Below are positions 53,835-62,929 of a stretch of 64,000 nucleotides of DNA, piece after piece. The stretch comes from Cryomorphaceae bacterium BACL29 MAG-121220-bin8 (GTDB taxonomy: Bacteria > Bacteroidota > Bacteroidia > Flavobacteriales > Flavobacteriaceae). The notes beneath the pieces were generated by a model. It did not search any database. It was not told the origin of the DNA and saw only the letters and a list, made by a program, of their open reading frames with translations. The stretch spans positions 248,001 to 312,000 of the forward strand of contig CAJIYP010000001.1 in the NCBI GenBank assembly GCA_905181705.1. The letters are read 5' to 3'. Both the position numbers and the translations under genes were made by a program. Position 1 is the stretch's first letter, and each line of letters starts with the position of its first letter.

Positions 53835-54440
53835 TTAACTAATACTTTTGATGTATTCTTTTACTGCCTTTAGGTAGTTATTAAAAAGCGCATCGTCTTC
53901 GTAAATTTTTCTTATTCCTCTTGCGCCTTCAAAGGAACATATTAAATAAGTAGCAGCAGAATTGGAATCTACACTAGCTTTAATTTCATTTTTCTCTTTA
54001 CCAATTTCAATTGTCTCAATCAAAGCATCTTTCCATCCATCCATTAGTTTTCTTAGAGGATCACGAAACGCAGTAATTGAACATCCAATTTCATTAATCA
54101 TGTTATTTGCAGGACATCCTAAGGCTTTTTCTTTTTCTGTAAAGTTTTCGATTCTTTCTGTAAAGACGTACAACAAAAGATCTGGAACTTTCCTTGTTTT
54201 ATTTTCTTTTAAAGGGGCTATAAATCCGTTGTAAATTCGTTTGGATAAAATATTTTCTATTACTTTTATTCCTATATCTTGTTTATTTTTGAAATGATGA
54301 TAAAAAGCTCCTTTTGTCAGATTTGTTTCCTCCATTATATCAGGAACACTTGTATTGTTAAACCCGTTATGGTAAAACATTTCAAAAGCAGTTTGAATAA
54401 TTAACTTTTGGGTTTCCTCCGATTTTAATTTTTGATTCAT
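53835..54440 (-). CDS. TetR/AcrR-family transcriptional regulator
   Basis: This 201-residue repressor has the TetR N-terminal helix-turn-helix: TAFEMFYHNGFNNTSVPDIMEETNLTKGAFYHHFKNKQDI, cited here by GAFYHHFKNK and TSVPDIMEE. The C-terminal ligand domain contains ALGCPANNMINEIG and AATYLICSFEGARGIRKIY, typical of many AcrR-like regulators for small molecules. It diverges from the secreted protein gene at 54,604 across 163 bases that contain a perfect 18-base palindrome. The same palindrome with one changed base stands before the gene at 59,276-60,415, so this protein is the likely local regulator of both. Confidence 0.92.
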   Translation of the reverse strand: MNQKLKSEETQKLIIQTAFEMFYHNGFNNTSVPDIMEETNLTKGAFYHHFKNKQDIGIKVIENILSKRIYNGFIAPLKENKTRKVPDLLLYVFTERIENFTEKEKALGCPANNMINEIGCSITAFRDPLRKLMDGWKDALIETIEIGKEKNEIKASVDSNSAATYLICSFEGARGIRKIYEDDALFNNYLKAVKEYIKSIS

Positions 54441-54523
54441 GGTAGTTTAACTTAAATACTATTTACTTATAACATTCTCATTTTCAATAGAATAAACTAA
54501 TATAGTGAATAAATAAATAACAT

Positions 54524-54541
54524 ACATACTTAAAAGTATGT
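54524..54541. promoter_or_regulatory. TetR-type operator palindrome (site 1)
   Basis: ACATACTTAAAAGTATGT is an 18-base perfect palindrome in the divergent tetR / secreted-protein intergenic region. Its 3' end is 17 bases before the -7 box TATATTTG (54,559-54,566), so it covers the -33 region. Half-site ACATAC is like the AcrR operator of enterobacteria. Confidence 0.65.
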
Positions 54542-54558
54542 TTTATTTAATGTTTGTC

Positions 54559-54566
54559 TATATTTG
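54559..54566 (+). promoter_or_regulatory. -7 box before the secreted protein gene
   Basis: TATATTTG matches the Bacteroidota TAnnTTTG element and lies 37 bases before the ATG at 54,604. The operator palindrome covers its -33 region, so binding would block transcription. Confidence 0.6.
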
Positions 54567-54603
54567 TGCTTATCAATAATCAATCTAACTTAAATTAACT
54601 AAT

Positions 54604-55410
54604 ATGAAAAAATTAATCTTAATACTTACTTTATTTATTTCTTTCTCTTCAGTGTCACAAGAAATACATTCTTTTTATACTTTGGATGTGCCAAGGTCCA
54701 AGGCCAATGATTTTGTCAAGATGCATAAAAAATTCATTGATATTTATTTGATGGGTTCTGAAGAAAATAAGATGGAATCTACATGGCTTTTTGCTCATAC
54801 TTATGGAAGCGACTATACTTTTAAAATTATAGAAGTTTATCCAAACATAATAGCCCAAGCAAGTGCTGTTAATTATGGAGGTGAAGTCAACAAGAATATA
54901 GATGCTATGGATATTTCATATGACGATAAAAAGATGTTAAAAGACGAATGGTCTACTTATTTTCAATTATTTATTGAAGGACACGACGATGAAATCAGAG
55001 TTACATTTGATAAACAAATATTTGTTACCGACAAAGAAATGGATTTTTCAAAAAAACATATCGTAGTTTTTAATAATAATGACCCCAAGTGGTCTGACCG
55101 TGGAGAATATATTTCTTTATGGAATCAGTTTACTAAACAACCTGCTGTTGATTTAGGGGAAGCTCTAGCTATAGTACCTACAGGACATTTTACTGGAAGC
55201 TCTTATTCTTTTCAAGCTGCTTTTTGGTACGACTCCTGGGAATCGTTTATAGCTAATCAAAAGGACTTAGAGAGTTCAGGTCCTATGTCAGATGATAGAA
55301 AAAGAATGTGGGATATTGGAGGAAGTCATAACGATGAGATTACTACTTTTTTAGGAAGCACAAGATCTAATGTAACAACATCTACTAAGATTTTTACAAT
55401 TGCTAAATAA
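54604..55410 (+). CDS. Secreted protein of unknown function, first target of the palindrome
   Basis: This 268-residue protein has a signal peptide (LILILTLFISFSSVS, then QEIH). I do not recognise a family. It appears to contain two related halves: HTYGSDYTFKIIEVYPN near residue 65 resembles HFTGSSYSFQAAFWYDSW near 200, each in a strand-helix pattern like the ferredoxin-like ABM fold; this is a sequence impression only. DIGGSHNDEITTF lies near the C-terminus. A strong promoter box and an operator precede it and a rho-independent terminator follows at 55,432, so it forms its own transcript under probable TetR-family control. Confidence 0.75.
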   Translation: MKKLILILTLFISFSSVSQEIHSFYTLDVPRSKANDFVKMHKKFIDIYLMGSEENKMESTWLFAHTYGSDYTFKIIEVYPNIIAQASAVNYGGEVNKNIDAMDISYDDKKMLKDEWSTYFQLFIEGHDDEIRVTFDKQIFVTDKEMDFSKKHIVVFNNNDPKWSDRGEYISLWNQFTKQPAVDLGEALAIVPTGHFTGSSYSFQAAFWYDSWESFIANQKDLESSGPMSDDRKRMWDIGGSHNDEITTFLGSTRSNVTTSTKIFTIAK

Positions 55411-55431
55411 TTTTTATATTTAAATGTAAGC

Positions 55432-55461
55432 AAAAACCCAAGTTTATACTTGGGTTTTTTT
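55432..55461 (+). terminator. Rho-independent terminator
   Basis: ACCCAAGT and ACTTGGGT form a stem with loop TTAT, flanked by A and T runs (seven T at the end). It ends the transcript of the secreted protein gene at 54,604. Confidence 0.85.
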
Positions 55462-55483
55462 ATTAACCAAAAAAATAAAAAAA

Positions 55484-55714
55484 ATGAATGCAGAAAAAAA
55501 TATAGTTAAAGTAAGAGCTCACGATGCTATATGCGGAGTATTATATCTCATTAGTGTTGGATTGACTTTTAATACAGGTAATTTAGACTTTTTATATATA
55601 GCTGTTGGTGTTGGAGCACTACAAGTTATTAGTCCTGTAACAAAGTTTTGTCCAGTATATTTTATTTTAAATAAAATCATGCCTGAAACGGATCCAATGC
55701 AAAATGGAAAGTAA
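55484..55714 (+). CDS. Small membrane protein, DUF2892 (YgaP-like transmembrane) type
   Basis: This 76-residue protein has two transmembrane helices. The pattern VRAHDAICGVLYLISVGLTF, then VGVGALQVISPVTKFCPVYFILNKIM with the FCPVY core, matches the DUF2892 (YgaP transmembrane) fold, whose helix-turn-helix ends in a conserved CPxY. No rhodanese domain is attached, as is usual for the small Bacteroidota forms. The role is not known; the family is sometimes linked to sulfur or stress metabolism. It lies nine bases upstream of the NTF2-like gene. Confidence 0.72.
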   Translation: MNAEKNIVKVRAHDAICGVLYLISVGLTFNTGNLDFLYIAVGVGALQVISPVTKFCPVYFILNKIMPETDPMQNGK

Positions 55715-55723
55715 AAAATAATA

Positions 55724-56182
55724 ATGTCCATTAAAAAAACTTGGATTAGTTTCCTGTCACTTTTCTTTCTTTTTCACTTGTTTTCTCAGGGTCCAATTTC
55801 TAAAATTGACTCATTAGACATAATGAAAGTTATGTCCTTTCAGGAAAAAGCTTGGAACAACGGAAATATTGATCTCTTTATGGAAGGTTATATTAAGTCT
55901 GAAGAATTAGTCTTTTCTGGTTCAGGGGGCCCAGTGTATGGTTGGAAAGCAACAAAAGACAGATACTTTAAATCGTACCCAGATTTAAAGACTATGGGTA
56001 AGTTAACTTTTAGAATTAGTAAAATAAAATCCCTTTCATCCAATACAGCTTATTTGATTGGGGAATACTATTTAAAACGAATAATTGATGACAGTTTTGG
56101 ACATTTCACCTTGCTATGGAAAAAAATAAATGGCAAATGGTTAATTGTTAGCGACCACACTTCTTCATCCGATAATAATTAG
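55724..56182 (+). CDS. Secreted NTF2-like (SnoaL/DUF4440-type) protein
   Basis: This 152-residue exported protein has a signal peptide (FLSLFFLFHLFSQG) and a single NTF2-like domain: SFQEKAWNNGNIDLFMEGYIKSEELVFSGSGGPVYG-type start (KAWNNGNIDLFMEGY), YPDLKTMGKLTFRIS and LLWKKINGKWLIVSDHTSS, which is the characteristic DUF4440 ending. NTF2-like proteins of this kind bind small hydrophobic or polar ligands or act as weak isomerases/cyclases; no catalytic residue can be assigned. Two more NTF2-like proteins lie nearby (59,276 and 60,581). Confidence 0.85.
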   Translation: MSIKKTWISFLSLFFLFHLFSQGPISKIDSLDIMKVMSFQEKAWNNGNIDLFMEGYIKSEELVFSGSGGPVYGWKATKDRYFKSYPDLKTMGKLTFRISKIKSLSSNTAYLIGEYYLKRIIDDSFGHFTLLWKKINGKWLIVSDHTSSSDNN

Positions 56183-56240
56183 AATTATTTATCGATTTAA
56201 ACTTGCCTATAGATTCAAAGTATTATAATTTTATGACTCA

Positions 56241-57362
56241 ATGAATTTATTAAATCAATCCGGTTTTCTTTTTACAAATTTTAAAGCAAAATCTCAAACT
56301 CCTTTTGAAAAACTTTTTGAAATTTTTAAAGAGTTGATAACTTATACCTCTGGAGATTTTGACGAAGCAATTGATTGGTTAAAAGAACTTGACAAGGAGT
56401 TTGTCCTAACTTCTGATGATTATACAATGGATGATTTTATTGAAGAATTACTCAATAAGGGATATATTAAAAAGGAAATTGATCCAAAAGGTAGTGGAGA
56501 AGGAATTGGTTTAACTGCTAAAACAGAAATGTTATTAAGACAACATGCGCTAAAACAGATTTTTGGAAAAATGAAGCGTATCGGAAATGGAAATCATAAT
56601 ACCAAACAGCCCGGCTTAGGAGAGAATGATTCAGGGGATTTAAAAGCTTATGAATTTGGAGATTCTATTGAGAAAATTGCAATTACTGAAAGTATTAAAA
56701 ATGCTCAAATTCAAGGTGGCTTAGAGGATTTTAAATTAACTAGAGAAGATCTAGTAGTTAACGACCAATTTCATCAAGCTCAGATGAGTACCGTACTTAT
56801 GATAGATATCAGTCACAGTATGATTCTGTATGGAGAAGACCGAATAACCCCTGCTAAAAAAGTAGCAATGGCATTATCTGAATTTATTACGACTAGATAT
56901 CCAAAAGACAAATTAGATATTATAGTTTTTGGAAATGATGCAAAACCTATTGCTGTCAAAGACTTGCCTTATCTAACAGTTGGGCCTTATCACACCAATA
57001 CAGTTGCTGGATTAGAGTTAGCAATGGATATTTTAAGAAGAAATAGAAATTCTAACAAGCAAATTTTTATGATAACAGATGGAAAACCTAGCTGTTTAAA
57101 GTTAAAAGACGGAACGTATTATAAAAACAGTAATGGATTAGACCCTCACATTGTAGATAAATGTTACAACATGGCACAGCAAGCTAGAAGATTAAATATA
57201 CCAATAACGACTTTTATGATTGCCCAAGATCCTTACTTAAAAAAGTTTGTTCAAGAATTTACTAAAGCCAATAAAGGAAAAGCGTTTTATACTGGCTTAA
57301 AAGGATTGGGTGAAATGATATTCGAAGATTATGAAACTAACAGAAAAAAAAGATTAAAATAG
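56241..57362 (+). CDS. von Willebrand factor A domain protein, partner of a MoxR-type ATPase
   Basis: This 373-residue cytoplasmic protein has an N-terminal helical region and a C-terminal VWA domain with a metal-ion-dependent adhesion site: Asp189, Ser191 and Ser193 in MIDISHSMI, then DILRRNRNSNKQIFMITDGKPSC. It resembles the BatA/CoxE- or magnesium-chelatase D-like VWA proteins that work with an AAA+ partner. The AAA+ gene follows after one base, which makes a functional pair very likely. The process they serve (protein assembly, cofactor insertion or transport) is unknown. Confidence 0.85.
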   Translation: MNLLNQSGFLFTNFKAKSQTPFEKLFEIFKELITYTSGDFDEAIDWLKELDKEFVLTSDDYTMDDFIEELLNKGYIKKEIDPKGSGEGIGLTAKTEMLLRQHALKQIFGKMKRIGNGNHNTKQPGLGENDSGDLKAYEFGDSIEKIAITESIKNAQIQGGLEDFKLTREDLVVNDQFHQAQMSTVLMIDISHSMILYGEDRITPAKKVAMALSEFITTRYPKDKLDIIVFGNDAKPIAVKDLPYLTVGPYHTNTVAGLELAMDILRRNRNSNKQIFMITDGKPSCLKLKDGTYYKNSNGLDPHIVDKCYNMAQQARRLNIPITTFMIAQDPYLKKFVQEFTKANKGKAFYTGLKGLGEMIFEDYETNRKKRLK

Positions 57363-57363
57363 A

Positions 57364-58815
57364 ATGATTAATAAAATTAAAACATTAAAAGACTTAAAAA
57401 AATCAGGTTACGTTTCTTTAAATATCAAAGAGGAAATGATAAAGAATTTAACATCAAACCTGTCTAAAGGTATTTCTACATTTGAAGGGATTCATGGATA
57501 TGAGGATTCAGTAATTCCTGATTTGGAACGTGCAATTTTATCGGGACACAATATAAATTTATTAGGACTAAGAGGACAAGCCAAAACTAGATTAGCTAGG
57601 CAGTTGACCAATCTTCTGGATGAATGGATTCCTATAGTTTCTGGATCAGAAATTAATGATGACCCATTAAATCCAATTTCTCATTTTGCCAAAAAAACAA
57701 TTAATGAACAAGGAGATAAAACACAAATCGATTGGATACATAAAGAGGATAGATTTTTCGAAAAATTAGCAACCCCTGACGTAACTGTAGCAGATTTAAT
57801 AGGCGATATAGATCCAATTAAAGCAGCAAGTTTAAAGCTTTCTTACTCGGACCCCAGAGTAATTCATTTCGGAATGATACCTAGAGCTCACAGGTGTATT
57901 TTCGTTCTAAATGAACTACCAGATCTCCAAGCAAGAATACAAGTTTCTTTGTTTTCTATACTTCAAGAAAAAGAAATTCAAATACGAGGTTTCAAACTAA
58001 GATTACCTATTAATGTTCAGTTTTTATTTACTGCTAATCCTGAGGATTATACAAACAGAGGAAGTATAGTAACTCCTTTAAAAGATAGAATTGGTTCTCA
58101 AATAATGACCCATTACCCGAAAACTGTTGAAACTGCAAAGATTATAACACACCAAGAAGCTAAAATAGATTTAGATAATGGTATTTATGTTCCCGAATTA
58201 GCAAAAGACCTTATTGAACAAATTAGTTTTGAAGCTAGAGAAAGTGTTTATGTTGATTCTAAAAGTGGGGTAAGTGCCAGGTTGAGTATTTCTGCCTTTG
58301 AAAACTTAATAAGTTCGGCAAAAAGAAGAATGCTTATTAACGGAGAAACAAAAACCAGTATTAGAATGACTGATTTCAATGCTGTGATTTCTGCTATTAA
58401 TGGAAAAATTGAATTAGTTTACGAAGGAGAGCAGGAGGGAGCAACTGAAATTTCAAGACTACTCATTGTTGAATCCGCAAAAGCTTTTTTTAATGATTTT
58501 TTTCCTAAAATTAAAAAGCTTACAAAAGAAGAAGATTTAGACCCTTATCAAAGTATTTTAGATTGGTTTAAGGATAAAGAACTTTTTATTGATGAAAATT
58601 TAGATAATAAGTCCTATCAAGATACTTTTAAGACAATAAAGGTTTTAAAACAATTTGTTAAGAAACAGATAAAAGACTTAAAACCTGAAGATGAAAATTT
58701 TATGTGTGAATTTTTACTTTGGGGACTTTCTTCATTTAAAAAAGTTACCGTAACTAGGACAACTAAAGGATTGTCTTTTAGTGACTCGTTTTCAGATTAT
58801 ATTAATGGGCTATAG
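57364..58815 (+). CDS. MoxR/magnesium-chelatase-like AAA+ ATPase
   Basis: This 483-residue AAA+ ATPase has a Walker A motif GLRGQAKT (residues 68-75, Lys74; final Gly replaced by Ala, as in this subfamily), a Walker B region RCIFVLNELPDLQ (with Asn in place of the usual Asp), and a sensor-1 region FTANPEDYTNRG. The C-terminal part is helical. It matches the magnesium-chelatase/MoxR clade found with VWA partners in Bacteroidota. The stop of the VWA gene is one base upstream, so they are translated together. In other systems such pairs remodel protein complexes or insert metal cofactors; the client here is not evident. Confidence 0.86.
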   Translation: MINKIKTLKDLKKSGYVSLNIKEEMIKNLTSNLSKGISTFEGIHGYEDSVIPDLERAILSGHNINLLGLRGQAKTRLARQLTNLLDEWIPIVSGSEINDDPLNPISHFAKKTINEQGDKTQIDWIHKEDRFFEKLATPDVTVADLIGDIDPIKAASLKLSYSDPRVIHFGMIPRAHRCIFVLNELPDLQARIQVSLFSILQEKEIQIRGFKLRLPINVQFLFTANPEDYTNRGSIVTPLKDRIGSQIMTHYPKTVETAKIITHQEAKIDLDNGIYVPELAKDLIEQISFEARESVYVDSKSGVSARLSISAFENLISSAKRRMLINGETKTSIRMTDFNAVISAINGKIELVYEGEQEGATEISRLLIVESAKAFFNDFFPKIKKLTKEEDLDPYQSILDWFKDKELFIDENLDNKSYQDTFKTIKVLKQFVKKQIKDLKPEDENFMCEFLLWGLSSFKKVTVTRTTKGLSFSDSFSDYINGL

Positions 58816-58863
58816 TAATAAATCACTTATTTTCATAAAAGATTAATCATTAAAAAATAAATT

Positions 58864-59208
58864 ATGAATTCGTTAAAAGCAAATATTTTAAATTCAATAT
58901 GTTTAATTGTTATAGGTCTTTGGGGTTATTTAGAGGCAACATCCTCAACTGCTTTAATTCCTGTGATTTTTGGATGGGCTTTGTTGTTTTGTTCACCTGG
59001 ACTTAAAAAAGAAAATAAAGTTATAGCCCACATTGCTGTATTATTAACTTTTGTATGCCTTTTAGGTTTGTTTATGCCTTTAAAAGGAACTATTGAAAGG
59101 GAAGAAACTATTGGTGTAGTCAGAGTTTCAGTAATGATTTTAACATCAATTACAGCTATGGTTTATTTTATTAAAAGTTTTATTGCAAATAGAAAAGCTA
59201 GAAAATAA
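58864..59208 (+). CDS. Small integral membrane protein of unknown function
   Basis: This 114-residue protein has about four transmembrane helices (SICLIVIGLWGYLEA, ALIPVIFGWALLFCS, HIAVLLTFVCLLGLFMPL, VMILTSITAMVYFIKSF) and no signal or enzyme motif. It resembles small Bacteroidota membrane proteins without assigned function. It is 48 bases after the AAA+ gene and may be in its transcript. A bidirectional terminator follows at 59,223. Confidence 0.75.
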   Translation: MNSLKANILNSICLIVIGLWGYLEATSSTALIPVIFGWALLFCSPGLKKENKVIAHIAVLLTFVCLLGLFMPLKGTIEREETIGVVRVSVMILTSITAMVYFIKSFIANRKARK

Positions 59209-59222
59209 TCTCAATTTTATTT

Positions 59223-59257
59223 AAAAAAAAACCTTCAATTGCTTGAAGGTTTTTTTA
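59223..59257. terminator. Bidirectional rho-independent terminator
   Basis: ACCTTCAA and TTGAAGGT form an eight-base stem around TTGC with A runs on the left and T runs on the right. It lies between two convergent genes (58,864-59,208 plus, 59,276-60,415 minus) and can end transcripts in both directions. Confidence 0.85.
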
Positions 59258-59275
59258 TTTTATATAATGTTTTTT

Positions 59276-60415
59276 TTACTGAGGAATTCCAGCTCCACCA
59301 AAAGGTGCCCAGTTAGCGTGAACCATTTTCCATCCAGAATCTGTTGCAATCCAAACCGCTGAAGCTCTTGTGCTGTAATCTACTTTTTCATTTGATTCAT
59401 TTAAAGTATAAGCACCACTAGCGTAAAATGTTAATATTGCCATGTTCATGTCAGGAGAAAAATTAACATCGATATCTCTTAGATCAAAACTGTCCCATGA
59501 GAAATTTCTTTTTTCTAAAAAAAGTTCATCAGTTTGCTCATAGAATTTTGTCAAACTAGAATCTCCAGTCATTAACTTCATGTCGTCCATAGTATAATTT
59601 TTCCAAACCTCAATATTTTGATTTTCAATAGCTTCTTGAACATCAATTTGAGCTTGTTTTAAATTCTTGACAACATTCTCTTTATTTAAGTTTCTAGAGT
59701 AGGTTCTTAATTTTGGTAAATATGGTGATGCAAAAGGAGCATAATCGAATGCTTTTAATTGACTATTCACAGCTTTTTCATAATCACCCTGCATAGCAGC
59801 GATTTCAGCTTCTGAGTCTAATGCATTTGGACCTTTATGTAATATCAAAGATTTTGCTATAGATTGGTAAGCACTATCAAAATCAGGTTCTTTACCATAA
59901 TCTCCTCTAGCATAAGCATACGCCATCATATTATATGCTGCTGATGAGTTTCTTGGAAATTTTTTTGAAAACTCTCTGAAAGATTCCCAATTACCAACAC
60001 TAGTTCCAAACCAATTTATTAATGGACTGTTTGGGTGCATACTTATAGCTTTTTCAACGGCTTTATTATAATTGTCATTTGAGGTAGAAAGCAGTATGTG
60101 CCAAGTTCTTTCTATTTCAGTTAAAGATTTCACATTTATGTTTTGAAGTTTTTCAGATCTAGATCCCCAGTCCGAGTTATTACTTGCTGCAGCTGCTATT
60201 ACTAATTTAGCACATTCACAATTTTCGTCTACTACTAAAGCTGCTTTTGCCATTCCAATAGCCATTAAATGCTCTAAGTTTGAAAGAGAAGTGATGGCCT
60301 CATTGACAATTTTTGAAGCATCCTTGTTACAAGAAGTTTTTTCAATCCACTGCTGAGCGTTTGCATTAATCAAAAAAGCAAAAGACATTAGTGAAGTAAG
60401 TAAAATTTTTTTCAT
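59276..60415 (-). CDS. Secreted TPR protein with C-terminal NTF2-like domain, second target of the palindrome
   Basis: This 379-residue exported protein has a signal peptide (LTSLMSFAFLINANAQ). Residues about 30-270 are helical TPR-like (NLEHLMAIGMAKAALVVDE, AAMQGDYEKAVNSQLKAFDYAP), and the last ~110 residues form an NTF2-like/DUF4440 domain that begins VQEAIENQNIEVWKNYTMDD and ends AVWIATDSGWKMVHANWAPF. The fusion of a sel1/TPR-type scaffold and an NTF2-like domain is uncommon in my experience. The upstream region holds a near copy of the TetR-type palindrome 17 bases before a TATATTTG box. No function can be assigned. Confidence 0.78.
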   Translation of the reverse strand: MKKILLTSLMSFAFLINANAQQWIEKTSCNKDASKIVNEAITSLSNLEHLMAIGMAKAALVVDENCECAKLVIAAAASNNSDWGSRSEKLQNINVKSLTEIERTWHILLSTSNDNYNKAVEKAISMHPNSPLINWFGTSVGNWESFREFSKKFPRNSSAAYNMMAYAYARGDYGKEPDFDSAYQSIAKSLILHKGPNALDSEAEIAAMQGDYEKAVNSQLKAFDYAPFASPYLPKLRTYSRNLNKENVVKNLKQAQIDVQEAIENQNIEVWKNYTMDDMKLMTGDSSLTKFYEQTDELFLEKRNFSWDSFDLRDIDVNFSPDMNMAILTFYASGAYTLNESNEKVDYSTRASAVWIATDSGWKMVHANWAPFGGAGIPQ

Positions 60416-60438
60416 ATTTATTTAATTTTTGTTTAATT

Positions 60439-60446
60439 CAAATATA
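60439..60446 (-). promoter_or_regulatory. -7 box before the TPR/NTF2 gene
   Basis: On the minus strand the sequence reads TATATTTG, an exact match to TAnnTTTG and identical to the box at 54,559. It lies 23 bases before the start codon at 60,415. Confidence 0.6.
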
Positions 60447-60463
60447 TAAAAAATAACAATCCT

Positions 60464-60481
60464 ACATTCTTAAAAGTATGT
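60464..60481. promoter_or_regulatory. TetR-type operator palindrome (site 2)
   Basis: ACATTCTTAAAAGTATGT is the palindrome of site 1 with one base changed (T for A at position 4). Reading the minus strand, its near end is 17 bases before the TATATTTG box, the same spacing as in site 1. This match of sequence and spacing is the evidence for common control. Confidence 0.65.
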
Positions 60482-60580: not shown

Positions 60581-61087
60581 TTATAAATTTTCTTTTCTAT
60601 AAACAATTATTCTTCTCATTTTGCCATCAACAATATATGCATCAGTAACATCTTGAACAATAACCTCTTTCCCATCAACTGTATCTTTAATCTCCATTCC
60701 AGAAATAACCCATTCCCCTTTTTGTCCATCGACTTTCATAGAGTAAGAAAAGAAAATATTCCATTCAGGATTTCCTTCATCATACCAAGCCTGTAATGCT
60801 TCAATGTGAGCATTATTTCCCTGGATGTTTCTTCCATCCCATGCATTAACAAGTATAGAATCGTTATTCATGCTTGCGATGGTTTCAAGGTCTTTATTGT
60901 TATGTGCATCAATGTATTTTTCCCATATTTCAAGATTAGCTGGATTAGCATCTCTTGCGGAAATTTTTTCTCCATTTGATATCATATAACCTGGAGCAGG
61001 ACCTTCCTCTTCAACAGTAACTTTTGTAGTATTGTCACAAGAAATCAAAATTGATGTGACAAAGAATAGTAATAAAATCTTTTTCAT
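60581..61087 (-). CDS. NTF2-like (SnoaL-type) lipoprotein
   Basis: This 168-residue lipoprotein has a short signal (LILISC, lipobox Cys17) and an NTF2-like domain: PANLEIWEKYIDAHNNKDLETIASMNND near residue 55, then WDGRNIQGNNAHIEALQAWYDEG and WVISGMEIKDTVDGKEV. It is the third NTF2-like protein within six kilobases. Ligand and function are unknown. It lies on the same strand as, and upstream of, the TPR/NTF2 gene but is separated from it by its own terminator and by the second TetR-type operator. Confidence 0.82.
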   Translation of the reverse strand: MKKILLLFFVTSILISCDNTTKVTVEEEGPAPGYMISNGEKISARDANPANLEIWEKYIDAHNNKDLETIASMNNDSILVNAWDGRNIQGNNAHIEALQAWYDEGNPEWNIFFSYSMKVDGQKGEWVISGMEIKDTVDGKEVIVQDVTDAYIVDGKMRRIIVYRKENL

Positions 61088-61143
61088 ATTTTTTTTTTTT
61101 TAAATATATAATAAAATACTTAAAACCAGATTAATAGATATTA

Positions 61144-62443: not shown

Positions 62444-62929
62444 ATGAATAAAATATTTTTACTATTGATATTGGTGTCTCTTGCTATTAGTTGTAATAGT
62501 TCTGTTCCTGCGAAAAAAGTAGAAACTCCAAATAAAATAACTGTTTCAAAAACAGAAAATGAAGTCCAGATTATTTTAAATTCTAACGATCAAATGCAGT
62601 TTGATAAAAAGGTTTTATCTGCTAGTCCTGGTCAGAAAGTTACCTTAACTTTAAATCATACAGGTAGGGGTAATAAGATGATTATGGGTCATAATTTTGT
62701 CTTATTAAAAAAGGATGTTGATGTAGATATTTTTGCTAGAAAAGCAGTAGAAGCAAGAAATAATGAATATATTCCTGAGGGAGATGAAATGATAGCTTAT
62801 ACTAAATTAATTGGAGGTGGAGAAAGTGTCACAATTACTTTTGATGCGCCAGCCCAAGGAATTTATAATTTTATTTGTAGTTTTCCTGCTCATTATCAAT
62901 TAATGAAAGGCCAACTTATTGTTAAATAA
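62444..62929 (+). CDS. Azurin-type blue copper lipoprotein
   Basis: This 161-residue cupredoxin carries electrons in the cell envelope. It has a lipoprotein signal (VSLAISC, Cys17) and the four copper ligands of azurin in the right order and spacing: His83 in MGHNFVL, then Cys145, His150 and Met154 in CSFPAHYQLM. The linker NEYIPEGDEMIAYTKLIGGGES is also azurin-like. A TAAATTTG -7-like box is at 62,419-62,426. Its redox partner is not identified; it may serve cytochrome oxidase or reductases. The stop lies seven bases before the convergent GH18 gene. Confidence 0.94.
   Translation: MNKIFLLLILVSLAISCNSSVPAKKVETPNKITVSKTENEVQIILNSNDQMQFDKKVLSASPGQKVTLTLNHTGRGNKMIMGHNFVLLKKDVDVDIFARKAVEARNNEYIPEGDEMIAYTKLIGGGESVTITFDAPAQGIYNFICSFPAHYQLMKGQLIVK

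Follow-up and report, generated by a model that had tools for sequence, protein, structure and literature searches.

A candidate TetR-family operator recurring at promoters of secreted-looking proteins in a genus of marine flavobacteria

Introduction

A stretch of 64,000 nucleotides (nt) from Cryomorphaceae bacterium BACL29 MAG-121220-bin8 (contig CAJIYP010000001.1, positions 248,001 to 312,000), hereafter the window, contains a gene for a TetR-family protein (tetR). An 18-nt inverted repeat lies between tetR and a divergent gene, and it occurs again, nearly unchanged, upstream of another gene of the window. The question raised by this locus is whether both repeats are operators of one regulator and, if so, how far its regulon reaches. 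From sequence comparison, one TetR-type regulator appears to control about eight places of this genome, including its own gene, mostly before genes for secreted-looking proteins. A preliminary description of the window had tied the two promoters into one regulon under the divergent TetR. This proposal is supported by the enrichment of the motif in the genus, its recurrence at the promoters of the same gene families, and its presence beside TetR orthologues, and the putative regulon is wider than was proposed.

Two candidate operators in the window

The repeats are designated as operators 1 and 2, both being candidate sites. They and the adjoining features are as follows (coordinates of the window; aa, amino acids).

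53835 to 54440, minus strand: tetR, 201 aa, with TetR_N and TetR_C_13 domains; proposed autoregulated repressor, from Pfam and the motif upstream of orthologues
54497 to 54504, minus strand: TATATTAG, candidate -7 box for tetR from sequence reading, 19 nt from operator 1
54524 to 54541, no strand assigned: operator 1, ACATACTTAAAAGTATGT, 8-2-8 inverted repeat between the divergent tetR and 54604 genes
54559 to 54566, plus strand: -7 box TATATTTG, 17 nt from operator 1, toward the 54604 gene
54604 to 55410, plus strand: gene for a 268-aa protein with a signal-peptide-like start and a predicted tandem dimeric alpha/beta barrel
59276 to 60415, minus strand: gene for a 379-aa protein with a signal-peptide-like start and a C-terminal DUF4440 (SnoaL-like; Pfam, E 3.9e-8)
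60439 to 60446, minus strand: -7 box TATATTTG, 17 nt from operator 2, toward the 59276-60415 gene
60464 to 60481, no strand assigned: operator 2, ACATTCTTAAAAGTATGT, upstream of the minus-strand gene 59276-60415

Operator 1 had been described as a perfect 18-base palindrome. The repeat is present, but as an 8-2-8 inverted repeat: an asymmetric AA separates the 8 + 8 arms, and 2 of 18 positions do not match the reverse complement. As described, operator 2 differs from operator 1 by a single base, and both repeats end exactly 17 nt before TATATTTG, one on the plus and the other on the minus strand. The distance from repeat to gene start is 62 nt for the 54604 gene (plus) and 48 nt for the gene starting at 60415 (minus). 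Since the TATATTAG box lies on the minus side of operator 1, this operator could serve both divergent promoters, those of tetR and the 54604 gene.

When up to 3 mismatches were allowed, the window gave 4 operator matches (two places, both strands); 100 shuffles of the window gave 0.34 on average, and none reached 4. The box TATATTTG is present 10 times in the window, both strands counted.

The motif beside TetR orthologues

From 74 loci, 25 TetR orthologues were selected at 35% or higher identity over near-full length, and 49 more distant or partial matches were left out. The 25 loci include Cellulophaga, Neptunitalea, Maribacter, Zunongwangia, and Flavobacterium titles, and some of the others come from the same genomes as the genus set described below. 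The motif upstream of these orthologues has the form ACATnC-n6-GnATGT. It was found within 400 nt upstream of all 25, with all ten fixed bases in 19 and with one mismatch in 6, so that an inverted-repeat operator is present as sequence at every tetR promoter of the set. For comparison, 3834 windows of 400 nt were drawn at random from other parts of these loci, and 27 of them (0.7%) reached nine or ten fixed bases. Among the genus TetR loci, 30 were fetched of 49 matches; the exact motif was observed in 13 of the 17 orthologue loci and in none of the 13 others.

Outside the genus, the operator precedes tetR in the Flavobacterium, Cellulophaga, Neptunitalea, Maribacter, and Zunongwangia loci, and in the first four of these it lies 17-20 nt before the tetR start codon (L073-L076, L078). 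The Neptunitalea, Zunongwangia, and both Maribacter loci have a second operator just after tetR, before the next gene (L075:8623-8640, L079:8600-8617, L076:8620-8637, and L078:8617-8634). That next gene encodes a HAD-hydrolase in L075, and its product has no Pfam match in L079. To judge from sequence, an operator before and just after tetR is the pattern of a local switch. Nine loci of TetR homologues from wider relatives (L046-L054) were scored within 600 nt on either side. A one-mismatch site lies 17 nt before tetR in L046 and L047, and an exact site lies 15-19 nt after tetR in L046, L048, L049, L053, and L054.

Sites in the genome and the genus

For genome-wide counts the pattern ACATNCNNNNNNGNATGT was kept, and looser matches with mismatches were left aside apart from those in L004 and L006. 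The scan of this genome and its relatives, which had been proposed in the preliminary description, revealed 8 sites in this genome (1.84 Mb, 4 contigs, 87% complete) and 128 across the 22 genus genomes, where the reversed pattern gave 13. The corresponding counts are 64 and 60 in 38 genomes of other genera from the family and order. In this genus the motif thus exceeds its control about tenfold, with no such excess in the 38 other relatives searched. The sequence ACATNCTTNNAAGNATGT matches 3 places of the whole genome and its reversed control none; the third place (C1:399570) is 47 nt before a gene for a 307-aa protein with a SnoaL_2 domain.

Merging by flanking sequence reduced the 128 sites to 127, since one G021 site appears at two contig ends. 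Open reading frames that start at ATG within 250 nt of a site were sorted into gene families by BLAST, a procedure by which distant relatives share a group. Gene context was compared for the motif sites, and the 13 reversed-control matches entered as a count. Only 6 of the 127 sites are inside open reading frames. A gene family seen beside a site in at least two genomes adjoins 103 of the 127 and all 8 sites of this genome. These 8 adjoin tetR and the 268-aa gene, the 59276-60415 gene, and genes for a double-SnoaL protein, a 256-aa protein, a 172-aa protein, a DUF805 protein, ExbB, and a broken DUF5687 permease. Because the operator outside the genus shows the local-switch pattern around tetR, the putative many-promoter regulon is, within the 60 genomes searched, a trait of this genus.

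Promoter geometry

Promoters of Bacteroides and Flavobacterium are of the -7/-33 type, TAnnTTTG/TTTG, according to PMC2483708. The position of the operator was analyzed in 63 promoters from seven chosen exported or membrane families of the genus, and other families were inspected by eye. A TATATT box begins no more than 40 nt beyond the operator in 40 of the 63, against a shuffled mean of 16.9, and 30 of 43 matches start 13-18 nt downstream. For promoters of the -7/-33 type, this distance places the operator over about the -33 region, with its outer ATGT about where a -33 element would lie. TAnnTTTG at exactly 17 nt was found in 3 of 63 promoters, and this window supplies two of the three. Thus, the combination of repeat, 17 nt, and TAnnTTTG fails as a strict rule, and the identical spacing of the two window promoters was partly luck.

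Within families the operator-to-ATG distance varies little, being 39-48 nt for the double-SnoaL family and 40-53 nt for the 256-aa family. The operator is about 0-13 nt before the box, where a box is seen, at DUF5687 permease genes, and 4-5 nt before it at genes for DUF4440-type lipoprotein-like proteins. Since the position of the operator varies and overlaps promoter elements, the geometry favours blocking over contact activation as the probable sign of control.

The TetR protein and known systems

TetR_N (PF00440) was detected in the window TetR with 52.1 bits (cut-off 24, E 5.5e-14) and TetR_C_13 (PF16925) with 45.2 bits (cut-off 27, E 1.3e-11) by Pfam. At E of 0.001 or lower, two TetR_N proteins are present in this genome. 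Two features are invariant in the window TetR and its 25 orthologues (26 sequences): KGAFYHHFKNK, a stretch that covers the expected recognition helix, and a GCP motif. In the NCBIfam scan no curated equivalog cut-off shown is reached, and the protein is therefore filed as a TetR-family regulator with a predicted TetR_C_13 ligand domain, under no named member.

The half-site had been likened to the AcrR operator. The acrAB operator of Escherichia coli AcrR, TACATACATTTGTGAATGTATGTA, has ACATAC/GTATGT half-sites 10 bases apart in a 24-bp operator, as given in PMC10597343. AcrR is likewise of the TetR family and the half-sites agree, but their spacing is 10 bases there and 6 here. The window TetR scores 45.3 bits with the AcrR model, below the cut-off of 271, and no RND (resistance-nodulation-division) pump is among the named target families. 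AcrR-type identity was thus rejected on spacing and protein model.

The ACATAC half-site is also shared with the Streptomyces CprB/ScbR-type gamma-butyrolactone receptors. The CprB consensus, ACATACGGGAC*GCCCCGTTTAT, has its half-sites 10 bases apart, compared with 6 here (PMC4150764). CprB, a Streptomyces protein, aligns at residues 2-62 to residues 2-62 of the flavobacterial window TetR. That paper reports mutation of the base-interacting residues K43, Y47, and F48, single mutations affecting binding little. If the chain is numbered as in PMC4150764, K43 and Y47 are K43 and Y47 in the window TetR, while F48 is H48. The ScbR family model gives the best NCBIfam score of the window TetR, 76.3 bits, yet its cut-off of 150 is not reached, and membership among the gamma-butyrolactone receptors was rejected. 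A search for AfsA-type signal synthases gave none in the 60 genomes, and the control genomes likewise gave none.

The AcuR, LmrA-YxaF, and NemR group shares the ligand domain PF16925, for which the window TetR scores above the cut-off. The relatives with solved structures include NemR. The comparison with this group is of the protein, whose score with the AcuR model, 73.2 bits, is below the cut-off of 247. Among the matches listed from titles and abstract starts of open-licence PMC papers, no paper described this regulon.

Target gene families

Families adjoining an exact site are listed with the number of genomes, out of 22.

tetR: 13
double-SnoaL protein: 11
268-aa family of the 54604 gene, including paralogues at 24-29% identity: 11
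59276-60415 family: 11, including G021, which has only a shorter SnoaL-type relative
256-aa family: 10
172-aa family, no Pfam match over cut-off: 9
ExbB/MotA: 8
DUF5687 permease: 7
plastocyanin/azurin family: 7, six of them divergent from the 59276-60415 family
ABC (ATP-binding cassette) ATPase: 6
carotenoid-isomerase-like flavoprotein: 5
238-aa family: 5
231-aa family: 4
lipoprotein-like family orthologous to window 60581-61087: 4
PaaE-like reductase: 3, followed by smaller families

The 231-aa family, the 238-aa family, and the 60581 gene gave no match in the domain scan at the limits used. In six relatives, the operator lies between the divergent plastocyanin/azurin orthologue and the 59276-60415 family gene; in the window, the plastocyanin/azurin-family gene (62444-62929) is separated from that family by other genes. 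At ExbB genes the operator is 105-118 nt from the start codon over eight genomes, and, read by eye, it lies between the ExbB gene and a tRNA-like gene (L007, L168, L183, L194, L209). The DUF5687 permease gene beside the operator of this genome (L149:2-1485, minus strand; G000 C3 near 730103) is broken into three-frame pieces relative to an intact relative, and is either a pseudogene or a product of assembly errors.

An imperfect copy, ATCTGGTTTTAAGTATTT, is present at 61114-61131 (minus strand), upstream of the 60581-61087 gene, and keeps about one half-site. Because an exact operator precedes the orthologous gene by 35-36 nt in four relatives, this copy may be a decayed operator site.

Two further features follow the 268-aa gene.

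55432 to 55459, no strand assigned: inverted repeat with a T-run, terminator-like on the plus strand by eye, listed on the minus strand by the scan
55484 to 55714: gene for a 76-aa membrane-like protein

A relative of the 76-aa gene lies across the operator from tetR in four relatives.

Proteins of the window targets

The 379-aa protein had been called TPR/NTF2-like. A TPR was not detected in it by Pfam, while its C-terminal DUF4440 was. The 268-aa and 256-aa proteins have no Pfam or NCBIfam match at the E-value limits used. Their models (AlphaFold2 for the 268-aa protein) have mean predicted local distance difference test scores of 76 and 81, respectively, and each consists of two beta-alpha-beta-beta-alpha-beta units, which is taken here to be a tandem dimeric alpha/beta barrel. 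The predicted fold is shared by both. The top Foldseek match for both families is 2pgc, a marine metagenome protein (E 1.7e-9 for the 268-aa protein), and the query-normalised template modelling scores of the best matches are 0.57 and 0.49. Further matches include putative monooxygenases, an anthrone-oxidase-like protein, chlorite dismutase/HemQ-type proteins, and sulfur oxygenase reductase. No homology between the two families was detected beyond the N-terminus, where profile comparison found only the common signal-peptide-like start.

At E of 1e-10 or lower, the 268-aa family is present in 14 of the 22 genus genomes and in none of the 38 others, and it has invariant histidines. Export of the target proteins is suggested by their N-termini, judged by reading rather than by a signal-peptide program. 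By predicted structure and by domain match, respectively, the 268-aa and 379-aa window targets belong to two fold groups, dimeric alpha/beta barrel and SnoaL. Members of these groups often bind or modify small organic molecules.

Discussion

It is probable, with good confidence, that the repeat is the operator of an autoregulating TetR repressor (53835-54440), that it covers the -33 region, and that a small molecule releases the repressor. A TetR dimer would bind ACATnC-n6-GnATGT. At operator 1 it would shut two back-to-back promoters, those of tetR and the 54604 gene, and at operator 2 the promoter of the 59276-60415 gene; through six further sites it would control other genes of the genome. 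With the outer ATGT at about -33, the bound dimer would block the sigma factor. Release would follow binding of a small molecule by the TetR_C_13 domain and would switch on exported barrel-fold proteins (tandem dimeric alpha/beta barrel and SnoaL-like) and membrane proteins, with a transporter in some species.

Several observations weigh against this repressor model. The distance from operator to box varies, and much the same arrangement would be expected of an activator at about -40. No recurring family adjoins 24 of the 127 genus sites. In four of the wider relatives (L048, L049, L053, L054) the exact site follows tetR and none precedes it, and in L050-L052 (29-32% identity) no sequence up to 600 nt away on either side reaches nine of the ten fixed bases. 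At E of 1e-20 or lower no TetR orthologue was found in three of the 22 genus genomes, G006, G008, and G015, which have 5, 2, and 11 sites, respectively. The last point is not decisive, because about five orthologues are expected to be missing at the mean completeness of 77%, though a different protein may serve the sites in these three genomes.

The alternative with the most weight, still an unlikely one, is that TetR binds the sites and, at least at the genes for exported proteins, mainly activates from about -40, in place of a poor -33 element. Apart from the ATGT of the operator, no clear TTTG -33 element is seen by eye in the printed promoters, and TATATT 13-18 nt downstream is an activator-like distance. 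The operator position, however, differs between families, as at the DUF5687 permease and DUF4440-type lipoprotein genes, and the operator just before the tetR start codon in L073-L076 and L078 suits blocking. In addition, most TetR-family proteins are repressors. It is less probable still that another regulator recognises the motif and that tetR is only one of its targets. The three genomes with sites and without a detected orthologue, and the three of nine more distant homologues without a site on either side, would fit such a regulator; yet the motif accompanies tetR orthologues into genera without genome-wide enrichment, the recognition-helix stretch is invariant, and related TetR proteins bind inverted repeats with the ACATAC half-site. 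Chance resemblance of two AT-rich repeats near promoters, with no common regulator, is scarcely credible. Perfect 8-2-8 arms by themselves are not rare in the window, which has 29% GC, 5 such repeats, and 114 TAnnTTTG matches on both strands, but chance does not account for the excess in the genus over the reversed control together with the same gene families recurring.

With a repressor as the preferred reading, the analysis defines a candidate operator and a list of targets for a regulator of marine flavobacteria that are known here mostly from metagenome assemblies. Several families without a Pfam name, with predicted tandem alpha/beta-barrel proteins among them, would be under one switch, which gives a handle on their function. 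The system may also be a case of regulon growth, the operator being beside tetR in Cellulophaga, Maribacter, Neptunitalea, and Zunongwangia while genome-wide enrichment is seen only in this genus. A more speculative extension, improbable as a whole, starts from a local TetR switch that controls itself: in this genus of marine flavobacteria with small genomes, it would have expanded to become the main regulator of a response to a diffusible compound. A hydrophobic or lactone-like signal would release a lineage-specific exported set of tandem alpha/beta-barrel and SnoaL-like proteins that captures, modifies, or exports the compound. If so, the released set would in some species add ABC transporter, carotenoid-isomerase-like, and PaaE-like redox genes, and its logic would be comparable to that of the Streptomyces gamma-butyrolactone systems.

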